A DNA stretch of 64,000 nucleotides from Synechococcus sp. CC9311 (GTDB taxonomy: Bacteria > Cyanobacteriota > Cyanobacteriia > PCC-6307 > Cyanobiaceae), in contig NC_008319.1 in the NCBI RefSeq assembly GCF_000014585.1, forward strand, positions 1,240,001 to 1,304,000, read 5' to 3'. The notes under the pieces are model-generated. The model did not search any database. It was not told the origin of the DNA and was given only the letters and a program-made list of their open reading frames with translations. Every line of letters starts with the position of its first letter. The stretch's first letter is position 1. The position numbers and the translations under genes are program-made. Of this stretch, positions 7,741 to 16,467 are shown piece after piece.

Positions 7741-8928
7741 TCAGGCGAGATTGTGGTTCATGCGATCAATGGCGTTTTGAATCCGATCGTTGATTTCAGT
7801 CAAGGTTGCAGGGTTAATCCAGTAGCCAAGACTGAGCCGAAGCCCCGATCGCCTCCATAAGGGATCCACGCCCATCGCTTTAAGGATGGGGCTGTCACTA
7901 TCTCGGCCGGAGGAGCATGCACTCCCACTACTGGCTGCGATTCCTTCACGATCCAGGGCTCGTACCAAGGCACGACCCGACATCGGTTGACCGTGGCGAT
8001 CGGAGACCAGCATTGAGAGATGGTGCGGTAGACGTTCCGTGGGATGCCCATTGAGACGGATTGCATCGTTTTGGCAAAGCAGGGCTAACAAGGCATCGCG
8101 CACGGAAGCGATCCCTGATCCTGATAATTCGATTTGATTCGCCTGACAAGAAGCGATGTCACGGAATGCTGCAGCCATTCCTTGAGCTAAGACCGGGCAT
8201 TCGGTGCCGGCTCGCAGGCCATTCTCCTGTTCGCCGCCGGCAAATAAGGGCTGGATCCGTTCAGCGATCTCCTGTCTGAAGAGCAACAAACCGATGCCTC
8301 TTGGACCGCCACACTTGTGTGCTGAGGCCGTTAGGAGATCAACTGGAAGCTCATTCCAATTCGGGCAACCCTGGCTCAAGACTTGGGTGGCATCGGTGTG
8401 AAACGGAATGCGCTTCGAACGACATGCCTCTCCCACGACCTGGATCGGTTGAAGCGTTCCGACTTCACTCTGACCCCAGATCAAGGAGACGATTTTGGTT
8501 GGAGCTTGCAGTAATCGATCCAGATGTTCCATTTGGATCTTTCCAAAGGCATCCACGGGCCATTCTTCAATCGTCCATCCGCATGCAACCAATTGCTGAG
8601 CAGCTGCCGCAACAGCAGGGTGTTCTACAGAAGAGATCACCAATCTGCCTGGTGACTGGGTTTTGGCGAGTCCAATCAGGGCTAGATGGGCTGACTCAGT
8701 GGCACCAGAGCAGAACAAGATGTCTGATCGGTCAGCTCCCAGGCTGTTGCTGATGGAAAGGCGCGCACGTTCGAGTGACTCAGCAGCATCACAGCCGATG
8801 CGATGAAGGCTTGAAGGATTGCCCCAACTCTCCTGTTGCGCCCTGATCATGCAAGAGATCACGCTCTCTCTTAGGGGAGCGGTGGCACACCCATCCAGAT
8901 AAAAGTAGGGGTGTTCAGGGCCTGTCAT
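7741..8928 (-). CDS. Cysteine desulfurase-family aminotransferase (NifS/IscS type)
   Basis: 395 aa using the ATG giving MTGPEHPYFYLDGCATAP; a longer in-frame start exists but lies inside dapF. A PLP enzyme of fold type I, class V, that removes sulfur from cysteine for Fe-S or other cofactor assembly. Seen: YLDGCATAPL at the start (usual YLDNAATTPL), GNPSSLHRIG, the CSGATESAHLAL phosphate-binding stretch, the PLP lysine in SAHKCGGPRGIG, and the persulfide cysteine loop SSGSACSSGRDSDSP. The start overlaps the dapF stop by 14 bp, so the two are translationally coupled. The deviations in the first motif suggest a divergent paralogue rather than the main IscS/SufS. Confidence 0.88.
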   Translation of the reverse strand: MTGPEHPYFYLDGCATAPLRESVISCMIRAQQESWGNPSSLHRIGCDAAESLERARLSISNSLGADRSDILFCSGATESAHLALIGLAKTQSPGRLVISSVEHPAVAAAAQQLVACGWTIEEWPVDAFGKIQMEHLDRLLQAPTKIVSLIWGQSEVGTLQPIQVVGEACRSKRIPFHTDATQVLSQGCPNWNELPVDLLTASAHKCGGPRGIGLLLFRQEIAERIQPLFAGGEQENGLRAGTECPVLAQGMAAAFRDIASCQANQIELSGSGIASVRDALLALLCQNDAIRLNGHPTERLPHHLSMLVSDRHGQPMSGRALVRALDREGIAASSGSACSSGRDSDSPILKAMGVDPLWRRSGLRLSLGYWINPATLTEINDRIQNAIDRMNHNLA

Positions 8929-10057
8929 CGCGCTTAAAGCGGGACAGGGTTCGCTTTTCGAGGGAATCGCCAGCAAGGTTGATCATGGCGTCAAGAGATG
9001 TTGACGACAAAAATTCTTGGACCTGCGCTTGTGCTTCATCGCGTAAGCAATCGTCAGGTTGATTGCAGTTGTCTTTGCAATCGTTCGCACAGTCCAAGCT
9101 GTTCTCGGCCTGCGTTGATGGCGTGGAGGCATCAGCGCCAGATAGCGTTGATCGTCCAACAGCTGCCGCTGTAGTGAGCTGTTCTGGTCCTGGCTGTGGC
9201 AGTAATTCAGGATTTAGAACTCCATCAAAAACTGATACGGCGGGTCCGGTCATAAAAACGGAGCCCTTGGGATCAGGCCAGCTGATCTCGAGTGGTCCGC
9301 CTGGAAGTTTCACCGTGGCCTCTGATTCCGATAAACCGAGCAGAGATGCGGCCACGAGTGTGGCGCAGGCACCCGTACCACAAGCCAGGGTTGGACCCGC
9401 TCCACGCTCCCATACACGGATCTCAAGGGTGTGCTGATCGATCACTTCTAGGAAGTGAACATTGGTTTTGGCTGGAAACAAAGAATCGACCTCCAGCGCC
9501 GATCCCCATGCGTCAAAGGGAATGGATTTGAGGTCTTGCACGGGCACAACCACATGAGGATTGCCCATCCCGACAGCCGCAAGCTGAAGGGTGCTGCCCT
9601 GGAGATCGATCTCTCCTTGTGGAAGTCCAGACCGTCCTTGCGGAAGATTTGTCGGAACTTGGTCGGAATTAAGGAATGGCTTCCCCATATCAACTCGTAT
9701 CTGTCCGTCTTCACACAGTTCAGGGACGATGACGCCTGCCATGGTTTCCGTTCTCCAGGTCCGTCCTGGCTGATCACCATCGCTATCAGCCAGAAAACGG
9801 GCTAAGCAGCGAATGCCATTGCCACACATCTCTGCTTCGCTTCCATCCGCATTGAAAATCCGCATCCTCAGTTCTTCGCCATGCTCTGGAGGCAGGGCCA
9901 AAATCAAGCCATCGCCTCCGATCCCAAAGCGCCGATCACAGAGCTGGCGCACCCAATTTGGATCTGGTTCTGCGATGTTGAGGGGAAGTTGCCCAGCACG
10001 ACCTTCCAACAGTACGAAGTCATTGCCTAAACCCTGATACTTGCTGAATTGCAACAT
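8915..10057 (-). CDS. dapF: Diaminopimelate epimerase with Cys-rich C-terminal tail
   Basis: 380 aa. It converts LL- to meso-diaminopimelate for lysine and peptidoglycan synthesis. The core (about residues 1-280) has GLGNDFVLLEG, the first catalytic cysteine in AEMCGNGIRC and the second in LACGTGACATLVAASLLG. After FMTGPAVSVFDGVL, where most DapF proteins end, about 100 further residues follow. They are Pro/Thr/Ser-rich, then contain four cysteines spaced CX3CX3CX5C at about 323-337, then a helical end. The start is set at MLQFSKYQGLG, which lies inside the direct repeat bounding the inserted element; an in-frame ATG 54 bp upstream, inside the element, could add 18 residues. It overlaps the desulfurase-like gene by 14 bp. 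Confidence 0.93.
   Translation of the reverse strand: MLQFSKYQGLGNDFVLLEGRAGQLPLNIAEPDPNWVRQLCDRRFGIGGDGLILALPPEHGEELRMRIFNADGSEAEMCGNGIRCLARFLADSDGDQPGRTWRTETMAGVIVPELCEDGQIRVDMGKPFLNSDQVPTNLPQGRSGLPQGEIDLQGSTLQLAAVGMGNPHVVVPVQDLKSIPFDAWGSALEVDSLFPAKTNVHFLEVIDQHTLEIRVWERGAGPTLACGTGACATLVAASLLGLSESEATVKLPGGPLEISWPDPKGSVFMTGPAVSVFDGVLNPELLPQPGPEQLTTAAAVGRSTLSGADASTPSTQAENSLDCANDCKDNCNQPDDCLRDEAQAQVQEFLSSTSLDAMINLAGDSLEKRTLSRFKRDDRP
10040..10057. repeat. Candidate attachment site, left (within the dapF start)
   Basis: Sequence cttgctgaattgcaacat. On the minus strand it reads ATG-TTG-CAA-TTC-AGC-AAG, the first six codons of dapF. It matches 13548-13565 at 17 of 18 positions; the one difference is a synonymous Leu codon (TTG versus CTG). 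TTGC and GCAA flank a 6-bp spacer. Similarity stops abruptly at the start-codon end; on the other side only scattered bases match. Confidence 0.65.
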
Positions 10058-10470
10058 CTCCTCAATCTCTTGTCTGAAACTGGTTTGCTTGAAAGGCGCC
10101 AAGGCCAGCATCTATGCCCATTACGATTCGTTAAAAGTGATATTTGATCATCATATTCGACTCTAGTGCTTAACAATCCCAGCCCTTAGAGGATCGTTTA
10201 CAAGGCTCTCTACTTCTAGTCGTGTTTCTGCTGAAGAGGCTAAGGCTCGCCTCAAAGCCTTGCAGCCACTTCTCAGGCCTGTCAAACGCCGCAGTCATGC
10301 TGAAAAAATCAGCGCCAAACATGGAAGAGGATTTAGAAGAATTAGGTCTTTACTCTTACGACTCCTTGGCTGGGCTTGTTGAGAATTTTTTATGGAGTCA
10401 AGCACCGAGCATTTACGTCTAATAGTTAGGCATCATTAGGTTCCTATAATGATCTGTCTGCAGTAATTCA
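10058..10470. other. Left end of element: no confident gene, possible relic reading frames
   Basis: About 410 bp upstream of dapF inside the element. Two overlapping plus-strand frames look partly protein-like. One runs 10167-10382 without any ATG, GTG or TTG near its beginning and encodes a basic stretch (VSAEEAKARLKALQPLL, then AEKISAKHGRGFRRIR). The other, 10222-10422, ends in an acidic stretch (MEEDLEELGLYSYDS). Together they may be the remains of one frameshifted gene. The region must also contain the present dapF promoter. Purine-rich sequence GATTGAGGAG lies directly before the dapF ATG on the minus strand. Confidence 0.3.
10445..10450 (+). promoter_or_regulatory. Candidate -10 element
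   Basis: A perfect TATAAT sits 20 bp upstream of the ATG of the 74-aa gene, in an AT-rich stretch. No clear -35 hexamer is visible at the usual spacing, which is common for cyanobacterial promoters. The short distance to the ATG would give a leader of roughly 10-14 nt. Confidence 0.4.
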
Positions 10471-10695
10471 ATGGAGTTCCACGGATCTTTGCTTCAGCTA
10501 AAGGCTGCTGTTGAAAAACTTGGTGTGCCTTGTCATTGGGAGCACCGACACGATTTCGAATCTGCTTTTTTTGACGACGAGGTCAGTAACCTCAAATTGA
10601 ATTGGTGGCCTTCCACAGGCGTAATCCAAATGGTTGGTGACCCAGAAGTACGAGAGGAAATGTGGAATCGCCTACTAAAGGCTTTAGATCTCTGA
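10471..10695 (+). CDS. Small hypothetical protein
   Basis: 74 aa, soluble, with balanced charge and no signal or membrane segment: MEFHGSLLQLKAAVEKLG, then a segment rich in Trp/Asp/Glu (LNWWPSTGVIQMVGDPE) and a helical end (REEMWNRLLKAL). A TATAAT box lies just upstream. I do not recognise a family. It lies inside the inserted element, but its regular codon use suggests a real gene rather than a chance frame. Confidence 0.6.
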   Translation: MEFHGSLLQLKAAVEKLGVPCHWEHRHDFESAFFDDEVSNLKLNWWPSTGVIQMVGDPEVREEMWNRLLKALDL

Positions 10696-11512
10696 TGCTC
10701 CCCCTCGTCGCTGGCTCTTAAACGCCAACTTCCTCCTTATCGCCAGCTCGCATCAGACAATCCTCAAGAGGAAAGACGGTGTGGCAAGGCTGCTGAAGTA
10801 GTTAAGTAAAGCAATGTCTTTCATGCTTTTCTTTTGGTCAGTGCTCCTCGAAGGATTGGCGCGTGTTGTTTTGTGGATGTTGATTGATTTATACGCGATC
10901 TAAACAGTTCGTCTAAGCCCAGACAATCAGGACGAGGAAGGTGCTGATCGTAAATGACACAACAGACCCCAGGAAGTTTAATACGTATTTCCCTAGAAGT
11001 AGGTTATGTATCAGCGTTAGGTTCTGGTTTTGGAAGATTGCTTTCACACATCACTCTTAAAAAGATAACTAAGGATCATGTTGGCGGTGCTGCGAGGGAG
11101 TCTTACTCAGGCTTAACTCCCTTGAACCAAGTTTTACCGCTGTTTTGATTGTTTCTGGCTCGGAGCGTTTCCTACACAGAGACCACAAAGATCTAGAGGG
11201 AGAGGTTGACTCGCGCGCCCGATTGATGGCTCACAGTTTGCTTGAGTTGATCAAGGGATGGGAGCCGCTTGTACTGATCACGCGGGTGTCGTACATGTTC
11301 AATAGCTTGGATGATCAGCAAGATCTGCATAACTGTTTTGAGCGGATCAGTGGATCTAGGAAGGATGCCAAGAGCGTTGGTCAGGTTGGATTGAGCTTCG
11401 TCTCATCATTTTCTCAGATTTCTCATCGGTCTCTCAGCTCATTATCAGGCCTCTTTAGGCAAAGATTAATTGAAGTGCGCTTAATTATAAACGATCAATC
11501 GTTTACACGACG
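10696..11512. other. Region without a confident gene inside the element
   Basis: About 800 bp between the 74-aa gene and the DUF1651 gene. Two plus-strand frames are open. One, 10954-11148, would encode 64 aa (MTQQTPGSLIRISLEVG). The other, 11145-11555, would encode 136 aa but needs a TTG start and overlaps the DUF1651 gene. Neither has a recognisable motif, and I do not call them genes. I see no RNA gene or convincing terminator here. Confidence 0.4.
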
Positions 11513-11740
11513 ATGGACGGATGGCTTCAGGACTCTCAAAAGTATTGGTCAGTGAGATTTTATAGTGACCCAAACATCATAAATGACGATGCACGCGTTC
11601 TTGTGGATCATGGTCGAGAGATGCCCTATGGACAGCCTGCTCTTCTTTTGTCACGCCGATATATGAGGTACGAGGACGCTGTAAGTCTCTGGAAACATCT
11701 TTTACGTGGTGGTTGGGAAGAGACAAATGCTATTTGGTGA
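11513..11740 (+). CDS. DUF1651 family protein
   Basis: 75 aa. The pattern is that of DUF1651, a small family of marine picocyanobacteria: GWLQDSQKYWSVRFYSDP at the start, VDHGREMPYGQPALLLSRR in the middle (usual xDxGxxxPxGxPxLLKxRR), and a helix EDAVSLWKHLLRGGWE followed by a terminal W. Function is unknown; members often occur in genomic islands and in several copies per genome, which fits its position in the inserted element. Confidence 0.8.
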   Translation: MDGWLQDSQKYWSVRFYSDPNIINDDARVLVDHGREMPYGQPALLLSRRYMRYEDAVSLWKHLLRGGWEETNAIW

Positions 11741-11854
11741 GGCTCGCTTATAGATTTAGCTGATTTCGCAAAAAGATCCTGATTTTGAATAAATAACCCA
11801 CAGTCCATTGTTGTTGTCAGTGTCTTCGTTTAATAGTTTTTAGTTAGTAGTTCT

Positions 11855-13063
11855 TTATTCCAACTGGTCCAAAGTTCTTCTCATCGTGTCCAAATCAACT
11901 GAGCCATAGATACCAGAGATGCTTGTATTGCTTGGACTGTGGCCAAATAACTTACGAATGGCCCTCTCATTCAGATTCTTCGTGCTCAGACACGATGCTG
12001 CCCAGTCACGTGTTGCTTTGGGTGACACGCCGATGATGTCACTCCAATGCATTCCTTCCGCCCAACGCGCTCTGTTTGGGTTGTAAGCCCAAGGGAATAT
12101 CAAGCCAGAGTGATCCATAGAGAGCTCGCTTTCAATGCGAAGGATCTCCATCAGCTTGTGATGGATCGGGATAGTTCTCTGTCTGAATTCGTTCTTCAGG
12201 GGCCTTGTCTCATGCCCCTTGAAGCTGATTGTTCCCTGGTTCAGGTCAATGTCTTCCCATCGGAGTCCTGCTGCTTCTGAGGCATGACTGCCTGTCCATC
12301 TGAGTACATGCCAGAGCAGTTGATGGTGCTTCGGCAGGTTCTGCCATCTTTCATCGGCTTGGTCCAGTCTCACCACCTGCTTCACCACGGCCTTGCCCCT
12401 GACCCTTTTGGTCAAGCCTTCAATCGGATTGCTGTTGATCCAGCCCTCATCCACGGCCACATTGAACAAGCCAGAGAGATACCTAAGGCGTGTCTTGGTG
12501 GTGCTGGCTGCTGTGGTCGTTAGTAGGTGATGCCTGTAGCTCAGAGCGTCATCTCTGGTTAGTGCCGTAATGAATTGCTTTTGGCAGTGCTCCATCAGCT
12601 TTCCCAAATGCCTTTCCCACTCCTTTTTTGTGGATGGTGCAGGGCTCTTCATCAGGGTTGCGAGGGTTAGAAGGTCATCAGGTGTCTTGGGCGGCTTGCA
12701 GGTCCCCTCCAGGTCTTTTTCAGGTCGGCCGGGGAATTCTTGTTGGTAGCGAGGGGTGATGGTGCCTAGGTCATCAGGGAACAGGCCCCTCCACGGCACT
12801 ACTGACAGAAGCTTCTGGTCTGGCGTTTCCTGCTGGCCTTTGGCCTCCCTGATGAGCTGATCGGTCTCCTCAAGGAACACGAGAGCGTTTCTCTTTGCCT
12901 CACCCAGTGTTTTGCCCGCCTTGCGTCGCCATGTCGAGCACCCGATGGCGCCTCTGAGCTTTGGAGGGACAGATCGGATGAAATACCAGCCATCCCTGCC
13001 TTTCCTTCGGGTGATGTAGCGAGGGTTAGAGGAAGTGGTCTTAGGCAAGGACCAGTCCCCCAT
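11855..13063 (-). CDS. Tyrosine recombinase (phage-type integrase), first catalytic Arg replaced
   Basis: 402 aa. The N-terminal part (to about 190) contains a SAM-like core-binding region (ALTRDDALSYRHHLLTT, SLSGLFNVAV-like LRYLSGLFNVAVDEGWI, NPIEGL). The C-terminal catalytic domain shows WTGSHASEAAGLRWEDIDL (box I), a lysine in RPLKNEFRQRTIPI, KATRDWAAS (box II, H/KxxR), LFGHSPSNTS, and the nucleophile tyrosine in GIYGSVD. In box I the usual TGxRxxE has His instead of Arg, so activity is uncertain. It is the presumed integrase of the surrounding element and lies about 0.5 kb from the right repeat. Its start overlaps the upstream SAP-like gene by 23 bp. Confidence 0.9.
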   Translation of the reverse strand: MGDWSLPKTTSSNPRYITRRKGRDGWYFIRSVPPKLRGAIGCSTWRRKAGKTLGEAKRNALVFLEETDQLIREAKGQQETPDQKLLSVVPWRGLFPDDLGTITPRYQQEFPGRPEKDLEGTCKPPKTPDDLLTLATLMKSPAPSTKKEWERHLGKLMEHCQKQFITALTRDDALSYRHHLLTTTAASTTKTRLRYLSGLFNVAVDEGWINSNPIEGLTKRVRGKAVVKQVVRLDQADERWQNLPKHHQLLWHVLRWTGSHASEAAGLRWEDIDLNQGTISFKGHETRPLKNEFRQRTIPIHHKLMEILRIESELSMDHSGLIFPWAYNPNRARWAEGMHWSDIIGVSPKATRDWAASCLSTKNLNERAIRKLFGHSPSNTSISGIYGSVDLDTMRRTLDQLE

Positions 13064-13391
13064 TCTCTTTTTGATGTAAAGCCAGTTGGATTAGATCTGC
13101 TTTTCTGTGACGATTGGGACTAACTCCCGCAGCCGCTTGGAGCTGCTTGATGGTCAGATCACTGAGACCCGCATGTGACCGATGTACACATGTAGTGGCA
13201 GATTTGGTGTACATAATCTTGCCAACCCCCACATGTAGTGCTGCTGATGGTTGTGGCGTTGTTCCTGATGTCGTTGATGATTTTGGTTGTGATTGGTGAT
13301 GACCTCTTAGCTCGTTAATCACCCAGCAGCTGGCCTTCAAGAGCTTGATGAGAGCCGCGATGAAGAGCTCTATTGGCTGGACCCTGTTCAT
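13041..13391 (-). CDS. Small SAP-like DNA-binding candidate upstream of the integrase
   Basis: 116 aa from the ATG giving MNRVQPIELF; a TTG 27 bp upstream is an alternative. The C-terminus (about residues 75-110) reads GLSDLTIKQLQAAAGVSPN followed by RHRKADLIQLALHQ, the leucine/glycine/lysine spacing of SAP or Rho-N-like helix-extended-helix DNA-binding motifs. The middle is low-complexity (Pro/Ser/Thr, Gln). It is directly upstream of and overlapping the integrase on the same strand, the position of an excisionase or accessory factor. That role is inference, and the gene contains the two 11-bp direct repeats. Confidence 0.55.
   Translation of the reverse strand: MNRVQPIELFIAALIKLLKASCWVINELRGHHQSQPKSSTTSGTTPQPSAALHVGVGKIMYTKSATTCVHRSHAGLSDLTIKQLQAAAGVSPNRHRKADLIQLALHQKENGGLVLA
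13187..13240. repeat. Pair of 11-bp direct repeats (cacatgtagtg)
   Basis: The same 11 bases occur at 13187-13197 and 13230-13240, 43 bp apart start to start, 310-360 bp from the right attachment site. A related tgtaca/gtgtaca sequence lies nearby. Spacing of about four helical turns near an integrase gene is compatible with arm-type binding sites, but the repeats lie within the SAP-like reading frame. Confidence 0.45.
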
Positions 13392-13547
13392 CGTTGAGCG
13401 GGTTGCGTCGGGACTCAATGCTTTGGGTGTTGGATCAACCGGCGCTGCTCTGGCTGCCCTGTGCCTTTGACAAGATTCTATGCCCAGTTGTTGGTCAATG
13501 GCAAATATTCAAGCGTGATCAAGCCTCTCGTGTCTTATGCTCCGAAT

Positions 13548-13565
13548 CTTGCTGAATTGCAGCAT
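13548..13565. repeat. Candidate attachment site, right (relic dapF start)
   Basis: Sequence cttgctgaattgcagcat, 17 of 18 identical to 10040-10057. On the minus strand it begins an 18-codon open frame (MLQFSKIRSIRHERLDHA, stop at 13509-13511) that keeps the first six codons of dapF and then runs into the element. The 25 bp between it and the hfq ATG would be the original dapF upstream region, including an AGAGAGG purine stretch on the minus strand. Confidence 0.65.
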
Positions 13566-13590: not shown

Positions 13591-13821
13591 ATGGAGCCAA
13601 GTTCCTTTGATCCGAGCTTGCCCAGCATTCGCTTGCTGCAGACATGGATTCGTGAAAAGAAAATTCTTAGTCTTGAATTATCCGAGGGACGTCGGCTGAT
13701 TGGAGTGCTGATCTGGCAAGACCAACATTGTTTGGCGCTGCAACCCTCTGATTCTGATGACCCGGTTTTGATCAGTCGTTCCGCCATGCTGCTGGTCCGG
13801 CCTTTGCCCCGAGGCCTTTGA
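13591..13821 (+). CDS. hfq: Cyanobacterial-type Hfq (Sm-like protein)
   Basis: 76 aa. The layout follows cyanobacterial Hfq: FDPSLPSIRLLQTWIREKK (N-terminal helix), LSLELSEGRRLIGVLIWQDQHCLALQ (Sm1, with the IRWQD-like IWQD), and SRSAMLLVRPLPRG (Sm2). It lacks the canonical KH/YKHA residues of enterobacterial Hfq. That is known of the cyanobacterial branch, which acts in motility and pilus binding in Synechocystis rather than clearly in RNA pairing. It lies just outside the right attachment site and is followed by leuS. Confidence 0.85.
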   Translation: MEPSSFDPSLPSIRLLQTWIREKKILSLELSEGRRLIGVLIWQDQHCLALQPSDSDDPVLISRSAMLLVRPLPRGL

Positions 13822-13863: not shown

Positions 13864-16467
13864 GTGACGGCTTTCTCGTCCCCATCCTCCAACGCAGCCT
13901 CTTCGGCCACTGATCGCTATCAACCCCTTGCGCTCGAAGAGAGATGGCAAGCGCTTTGGAAGGAACAGCGTCTCTATGAAACGCAGGACCCGAAGCCAGG
14001 CCAGCGAGCCTTTTATGCGTTGTCGATGTTTCCTTATCCCTCGGGAACGCTTCATATGGGCCATGTCCGTAATTACGTGATTACGGATGTGATTGCACGG
14101 GTGCAACGGATGCGGGGTGATGCAGTGCTTCATCCCATGGGGTGGGATGCCTTTGGTTTACCCGCTGAAAATGCCGCAATCGAACGGAAGATCGAACCAG
14201 GTGTTTGGACAGACAGCAATATTGCTCAGATGCGAGGCCAGTTGGGTCGCCTGGGGTTATCGATCGATTGGGATCGCGAAGTAGCAACGTGCCATAGCGA
14301 TTACTACCGTTGGACGCAATGGCTGTTCCTGGAACTGCATGCCGGCGGACTTGCCTATCAAAAAGATGCCACTGTCAATTGGGATCCCGTTGATCAAACG
14401 GTGCTCGCAAATGAGCAAGTGGATGCGGATGGTCGCTCCTGGCGTTCTGGAGCGTTGGTGGAAAAACGGGACTTGCGCCAATGGTTTTTACGCATCACGG
14501 ATTACGCCGATGCCCTACTTGATGATCTCGATCAACTTCAGGGCTGGCCTGAACGTGTCCGCACAATGCAAGCCAATTGGATTGGCCGTTCCATTGGTGC
14601 GGAGATCGATTTCCAAGTGGAAGCCCATCCAGGCACTTCAATCACCGTTTTCACAACGCGACCAGACACATTGTTTGGAGTGAGCTATCTAGTTTTAGCT
14701 CCTGATCATGCCCTTGTTGATCAACTCACCACAAGTGAAGAACGCATTTCGGTGACTGCATTCAGGGATCTCATGGCTGAACTGAGTCAAGATGAGCGAA
14801 CGTCTGATGATCAACCAAAACGAGGAGTTCCTACAGGTGCTGTTGCTATCAATCCAGCCAATGGGAAATCGATTCCCATCTGGATTGCTGACTATGTGCT
14901 GGCCGATTACGGAACAGGCGCTGTCATGGGTGTACCAGCCCATGACGTTCGAGATTTCTCATTCGCTCGACAACATGAATTACCTGTTCAAAGAGTGATT
15001 GAAGTTTCAGGTACCAATGAACATGTTAATGACGGTGAAGCCTGGGCAGGACCAGGCACCCTGATTCATAGTGCTGGCTTCAGTGGTTTAAGCAATGATG
15101 AGGCTAAAACTGCGATTACCAATCATGGGGCCGAAAACGGTTGGGCTCGGGCTAAGCGTCAATACAGACTTCGAGATTGGCTGATCTCTAGGCAAAGATA
15201 TTGGGGGTGTCCAATTCCAATCATTCATTGTGATGATTGTGGGGCTGTTCCGGTTCCCCGCGATCAGCTTCCTGTGGAATTGCCAACTGGAATTGATCTG
15301 AAAGGAGCTGGAGGATCACCACTCGCTCGTGCGGAGGATTGGGTCAGTGTCACCTGTCCTAAATGTGGAAAACCAGCTCGGCGTGAGACCGACACGATGG
15401 ACACCTTTATGTGTTCATCGTGGTATTACCTTCGATTTGCCGATCCTCATAATCGAGATCTTCCATTTAATGCAACTTCTGTGAATCGCTGGTTGCCGGT
15501 AAAGCAGTATGTGGGGGGAATTGAACATGCAATTCTTCACTTATTGTATGCGCGTTTTTTTACTAAGGCATTAAATGATCGTGATTTACTGCAAACAAAG
15601 GAACCCTTTGAACGTTTGCTAACGCAAGGCATGGTGCAGGGCACCACCTACCGCAATCCAAGAACTGGTCGTTATATCTCCCCGGCGGCGGTCAAAGACG
15701 AATCCAATCCCCTCGATCCGGATGATGGTGGACCGTTAGAAGTTTTGTTTGAAAAAATGTCCAAGTCGAAGCACAACGGTGTGGATCCTGCCGCTGTGAT
15801 CGATCGTTATGGCGCCGATACTGCTCGGATGTTCATTCTTTTCAAAGCGCCTCCTGAAAAGGATTTGGAATGGGATGACGCTGATGTAGAGGGCCAATTC
15901 CGTTTCTTGCAGCGTCTTTGGCGTTTGGTTGATTCGGAGGTCAACCATGACGGAGTCTCCCCTGCAACGGGCGAATCAGACAGTGACATTCGTCGTGCTG
16001 TGCATCAGGCCATTAAGGCCGTTAGCGAGGATCTCAGCGATGACTTTCAGTTCAACACAGCGATTTCAGAGCTGATGAAGCTCAGCAACTCCCTTTCCTC
16101 TGGCTTGGCGCAAGCCTCGCCTGGCGTTCGGCAGGAAGCGATGTCAGCTCTTGTGCGCTTATTGGCGCCATTTGCACCGCATCTGGCCGAGGAGTTTTGG
16201 CAACGACTCGGCGGTGAAGACAGTGTTCACTGTCAGCCATGGCCTGACCATGACCCAGAGGCCTTGGTCTTGGCGTCCATTGAAGTGGTAATTCAGGTCA
16301 AAGGAAAGGTACGGGGATCGATGTCCGTAGCCGCTGACTGCAGCAAGGAAGAACTAGAGAGGTTGGCTCTTGCCAGTGATGTGGCCCAACGCTGGCTTGA
16401 AGGCAAGCCCCCTAGACGAGTGATTGTGGTTCCAGGAAAGCTCGTCAACCTGGTGCCGAGCTCCTAA
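13864..16467 (+). CDS. leuS: Leucyl-tRNA synthetase
   Basis: 867 aa from a GTG giving [10 protein letters not shown]; a TTG at 13831 would add 11 residues. It charges tRNA-Leu with leucine. Class I motifs: HMGH in [14 protein letters not shown] near residue 50, KMSKS in [11 protein letters not shown] near 645. The CP1 editing domain includes [19 protein letters not shown] and [16 protein letters not shown] zinc-type insertion is visible in [13 protein letters not shown] and [18 protein letters not shown]. The C-terminal anticodon region ends with [10 protein letters not shown]-type residues ([13 protein letters not shown]). It is probably co-transcribed with hfq, whose stop is 42 bp upstream. 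Confidence 0.97.

Follow-up and report, generated by a model that had tools for sequence, protein, structure and literature searches.

The stretch of DNA analysed here, referred to as the window, comprises 64,000 nt of the genome of Synechococcus sp. CC9311. Between dapF and an Hfq-related gene it carries an integrative element with two cargo genes and a gene for a tyrosine recombinase that has His at the position of the first catalytic Arg (Arg I) (Table 1). The integrase is present in one copy in its genome and scores 38.3 bits with the Pfam profile Phage_integrase (PF00589), above the cut-off of 27.1. Another integrase of the same genome (L210, at about 2117 kb of G000:C1) is apparently split between two frames, one of 306 codons and one of 264.

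Table 1. Features of the dapF locus, in window coordinates.
Feature	Position	Strand	Basis
dapF, target gene	8915..10057	-	ORF; name assigned from sequence features
Attachment-site copy at dapF start (first 18 nt of gene)	10040..10057	.	Repeat; single copy in relatives
Integrative element between both copies, about 3.5 kb	10058..13547	.	Absent in six close relatives
74-aa cargo gene matching no family; strong conservation in G101	10471..10695	+	97% identity; dN 0.017, dS 0.51
Cargo gene with DUF1651	11513..11740	+	Pfam, 78 bits
Integrase (tyrosine recombinase, 402 aa, His at Arg I position)	11855..13063	-	ORF, Pfam, model fold similar to Tn1549 Int and an archaeal Xer
Tyr386 codon, nucleophile	11906..11908	-	Alignment; low model confidence, pLDDT about 60 for 381-390
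His375 codon	11939..11941	-	Alignment
Arg352 codon (Arg II)	12008..12010	-	Alignment
Lys349 codon, replaces usual His of HxxR	12017..12019	-	Alignment
Arg294 codon AGA, candidate compensating residue	12182..12184	-	Arg in 9/9 His enzymes, Ser in 17/17 nearest Arg enzymes; role inferred
Lys290 codon, beta-hairpin Lys	12194..12196	-	Alignment
His260 codon CAT, in place of Arg I	12284..12286	-	Aligned with box I Arg of XerD
Attachment-site copy, hfq-like gene side, bases same as empty site in relatives	13548..13565	.	Repeat
Hfq-related gene, far side of insertion	13591..13821	+	Pfam Hfq_1, 75 bits

The two attachment-site copies are identical at 17 of 18 positions. In six close relatives (L049-L054), whose dapF genes are 87-89% identical, dapF and the hfq-like gene stand 27 bp apart with one copy of the repeat between them. 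Since the relatives hold a single copy at this place, the repeats are more than a chance resemblance, and the two repeats mentioned in the first-pass annotation are real. With direct repeats at both ends, one of them inside the target gene, and an empty site in six relatives, the locus has the features of a site-specific integrative element. A 2 kb gap separates dapF and the hfq-like gene in a further genome (G295; L123:5912-7990), which has an element-type attachment copy at dapF and no integrase match; this locus is probably a remnant. Upstream of the integrase, an ORF of 125 aa (13041-13418) was considered as an excisionase and rejected: it has no convincing family match and its dN is about equal to its dS (0.296 and 0.30) in the comparison with G101, which makes a real gene improbable. 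The 74-aa cargo gene showed strong selection in the same comparison.

In tyrosine recombinases, Arg I contacts the scissile phosphate. Box I of the integrase reads TGSHASE, which had been read at first sight as a His where the Arg of TGxRxxE belongs. Alignment supports that reading: phmmer and a profile of nine relatives each aligned His260 with the XerD Arg of box I, and in the profile the corresponding Arg of archaeal XerA and of P2 integrase stood in the same column. Alignment to these solved structures rules out a misplaced His260 and puts no other Arg at the box I position. The remaining catalytic residues are present, as the first-pass annotation had stated, with Tyr386 as nucleophile, Lys290 on the hairpin, Arg352 as Arg II and His375 as the second His. 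The His of HxxR is absent, with Lys349 in its place, a feature common to many relatives. Judged by its sequence, the integrase is homologous to the tyrosine recombinase superfamily (PF00589) and lies outside the canonical pentad, as a variant member.

An AlphaFold2 model of the integrase, built from 67 alignment rows, had a mean pLDDT of 78.2. Ten-residue blocks of the catalytic domain scored 76-97, except for about 60 around Tyr386. Comparison with Tn1549 Int gave Z 16.9 and an rmsd of 2.9 over 250 residues, and the catalytic-domain fold is present. The match to archaeal Xer gave Z 17.8 with an rmsd of 9.8, indicating that the domains are placed differently. The N-terminal part is predicted to form three strands and one helix, the layout described for arm-binding domains (PMC8138268).

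Of 400 genomes belonging to the family, 31 contained a match at E 1e-10. The clade as defined here comprises nine intact members, the window's integrase included, from three genera and with 36-77% identity to the window's protein. The first-pass annotation had proposed following the residue through close homologues from different elements, where a majority with Arg would point to an isolated change. His260 was found in all nine, which rules out a private mutation. Tyr386, Lys290, Lys349 and His375 were likewise kept in all nine, and Arg352 in eight. More distant picocyanobacterial integrases had Arg at this position without exception: in a tree of 34 aligned sequences, a weakly supported branch (65/45) separated the nine with His from the other 25, all of which had Arg. 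Fragments, broken copies and weaker matches were kept out of the tree, in which the G198 row is a partial frame of 301 aa. Six of the weaker matches (G109 not among them) were read separately, and all had Arg in box I. The same was true of all 69 aligned viral integrases (80 of 388 loci were kept and 70 taken for alignment, one of which was dropped for a stop). In the reading that we favour, His has occupied the Arg I position from the divergence of the subfamily onward.

Searches with the nine-row profile recovered no member beyond family f1 in 386 genomes of phylum samples (10 of them matching; samples, not all genomes), and no further intact member near the clade scores in 34 genomes of genus g5, the single genome of g54 or 399 genomes of the order. 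Phage and plasmid records gave nine matches each, with identities that stayed below 60% and less than 80% of the protein covered in every case. The element DNA had no match among phages, scans of IMG/VR with the integrase family found no relative, and a scan of genome contigs found one distant locus.

Broken copies of the family occur in several genomes. Position 260 could be read in four of them and was His in three and Tyr in one. The broken copy in G285 (L040:353-1558) carries His260 to Tyr, Arg294 to Ser and Tyr386 to Phe changes in addition to stops. One His-type integrase with an open frame (G225; L033:8301-9530) has His at Arg II as well, in the motif KATH. This suggests that activity may have been lost in some members, or that the active site is drifting as a whole; the G225 enzyme itself may be inactive or a further departure.

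To compare the two groups of enzymes, we listed catalytic-domain positions at which all nine His enzymes share a residue that few of the 17 nearest Arg enzymes have: 243, 250, 260, 262, 274, 294, 323, 340 and 350. At position 294, four residues after the catalytic Lys290, all nine His enzymes had gained Arg, and all 17 nearest Arg enzymes had Ser. The model places Arg294 in a short turn linking Lys290 to the strand that follows, from which it may reach the scissile phosphate. It is plausible, though short of probable, that Arg294 is a compensating residue. A working lineage, one not known to be related to IntDOT, could then have exchanged Arg I for His while the guanidinium moved to Arg294 on the hairpin beside Lys290, a scenario that we put forward tentatively. 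Arg294 is not peculiar to His enzymes: the column held Ser in 40 of the 69 viral integrases, Gly in 9, Lys in 8, Arg in 4 and other residues in 8, and the four with Arg have a normal Arg I. On the tree, the changes to His260 and Arg294 form one event on the branch with 65/45 support, and the pairing is not replicated.

An active enzyme in which Arg294 has no special part is a serious possibility, and one that we would stop short of calling probable. His260 alone might suffice, in line with Cre R173H, which shows limited recombination with no compensating change (PMC4499138) and is listed among mutants that all have reduced recombination (PMC4457865). Alternatively, Arg287 might help; it is invariant in the nine His enzymes and is also present in the aligned Arg enzymes. 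Against this reading, Arg294 is fixed throughout the clade and missing from the nearest Arg enzymes, and the three broken copies readable at this position have Ser, His and Lys instead.

Evidence of movement came from the places where His integrases were found. There are five kinds of target: the start of dapF, and sites just past genes that we take, from their sequence, to be glyS (the first copy in G216), glnA (G277), one resembling yajQ (G054) and one resembling marC (G319). Integrases at the four targets other than dapF begin 44 to 98 bp beyond the 3' end of a gene. Those of G101, G225 and G256, together with the broken G285 copy, are bounded by leuS on one side and by dapF or the hfq-like gene on the other (the G256 contig ends before dapF). 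In all nine cases the integrase gene is within about 500 bp of the attachment site or the target-gene end.

Direct repeats were present at four of the five targets, matching at 16/16 positions near the glyS end, 20/22 at the glnA end and 24/26 where the yajQ-like gene ends; no repeat was found within about 9 kb at the marC-like target in G319. The second element of G216 shows the same split between its copies as the window, the copy on the dapF side having A where the other has G, and its integrase is only 40% identical. Empty sites were found in relatives at dapF, glnA and glyS. The right flank of the G277 element is continuous with glnA over 1519 bp in G301 (94.4%) and G322 (95.8%), and at glyS ten relatives continue from the attachment core over about 1.5 kb, the best being G249 at 96%. 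As the events in G277 and G216 postdate the split from relatives that are 94-96% identical in the flank, we read them as recent action of a His integrase, which either inserted the element or removed it precisely from the relatives. The G277 element (L036:8666-8687 and 15434-15455) replaces the last glnA codons with synonymous ones, and the end of the protein is kept.

The window and G101 share segments of the element. The integrase dN/dS between these two genomes was 0.31, a sign of purifying selection since their split; the catalytic part gave 0.26 and the remainder of the protein 0.35. Of 15 pairs for which dN/dS was calculated, one had an infinite dS. The integrase dS of 0.46 compares with 0.43 for dapF, 0.34 for leuS and 0.51 for the 74-aa cargo gene. 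Values for the hfq-like gene (0.27) and the DUF1651 gene (0.70) come from short genes and scatter, and a leuS comparison with L052, being out of frame, was left out. Most simply, both genomes inherited a single insertion. The window's copy has been in place for long and may move rarely. In neutral simulations of one lineage, the integrase frame acquired a mean of 8.2 stops and stayed free of stops in 1 of 2000 runs; with the lower leuS rate, the mean was 6.6 and 4 of 2000 runs were stop-free.

Selection on the gene fits a role in binding as well as one in catalysis, and it is the kept nucleophile and the insertions that separate the two. SroF and MrpR are phage repressors with the recombinase fold that have lost catalysis, and they appear among the fold matches to the integrase model (ranks 23, 24 and 49). 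Retention of the protein as a DNA-binding regulator of this kind is nevertheless very improbable, given the conservation of Tyr386, Lys290, Lys349, His375 and, with one exception, Arg352, the switching of targets by the elements and the closeness of the integrase gene to the site of insertion.

It is likewise very unlikely that the His substitution killed the enzyme and left the element a fossil, the first of two options that the first-pass annotation had offered. The literature gives grounds for considering it: Arg I is described as nearly invariant, and even Lys at this position is reported to abolish recombination in Cre (R173K; PMC4499138) and serves as the inactive control in Tn1549 Int (R225K; PMC5871717). 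The broken copies in several genomes also speak for it. The low dN/dS and a frame that has stayed open over a dS of 0.46 are evidence against a fossil, as are the sharing of the residue by nine intact proteins and the insertions or precise losses that followed recent splits, with empty sites marking them. That the elements were moved in trans by an ordinary Arg I recombinase merits very little credence, since the His integrase gene adjoins the attachment site or target end in every case and is itself under selection, even though the window's genome has two other Phage_integrase matches, each of which retains the box I Arg.

The second of the two options, an active subfamily whose catalysis is altered, fits best and is supported as a sequence class. 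If an Arg elsewhere compensates, possibly Arg294, the chemistry departs less from the usual than it seems to. From sequence comparison, the subfamily is very probably catalytically competent as an active variant, and the account as a whole, an integrase of a small element belonging to a competent subfamily with His for Arg I, is likely to be the best explanation. In the mechanism we propose, the integrase would recombine the attachment site of the element with the first 18 nt of dapF. Tyr386 would cleave, with Lys290, Lys349, Arg352 and His375 presumably in their usual roles. The charge-stabilising task of Arg I would be divided between His260 and a relocated Arg, for which Arg294, on the hairpin beside Lys290, is the most likely candidate.

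Departures at box I have been described in other tyrosine recombinases. A survey reports CTnDOT-type enzymes that lack the box I Arg, with another Arg downstream taking over, and IntDes enzymes in which it is shifted (PMC8138268). The IntCTnDOT subgroup (integrases of CTnDOT, ERL and Tn5520) thus resembles the His clade in lacking this Arg, but it belongs to Bacteroidetes and the passages of the survey on this subgroup describe no uniform His; the likeness is one of description. In the IntDes subgroup, from Desulfovibrio, the box I Arg is displaced, shifted and not replaced by His, and the first His is Tyr (PMC8138268).

The nearest enzymes by sequence are the picocyanobacterial Arg I integrases (G217, G198, G131, G112 and others), which have the same domain order and, in most, the KxxR box, but combine Arg260 with Ser294 in all 17 of the nearest. 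SSV1-type archaeal integrases share the Lys for the His of HxxR, in the pattern R...KxxR...Y, and differ in that Arg I is present in the consensus given for them (PMC8371274). The dusA-associated integrases are also tyrosine integrases with a target site at the 5' end of a protein-coding gene, though the target gene is another one (PMC4482086). In literature searches covering open-licence PMC papers, we noticed no uniform His at Arg I of a natural clade.

A natural His subfamily beside evidently inserted elements would show how the active site of a tyrosine recombinase can be rewired. Filters based on the TGxRxxE motif would miss working integrases, and the islands that go with them, in abundant marine cyanobacteria.
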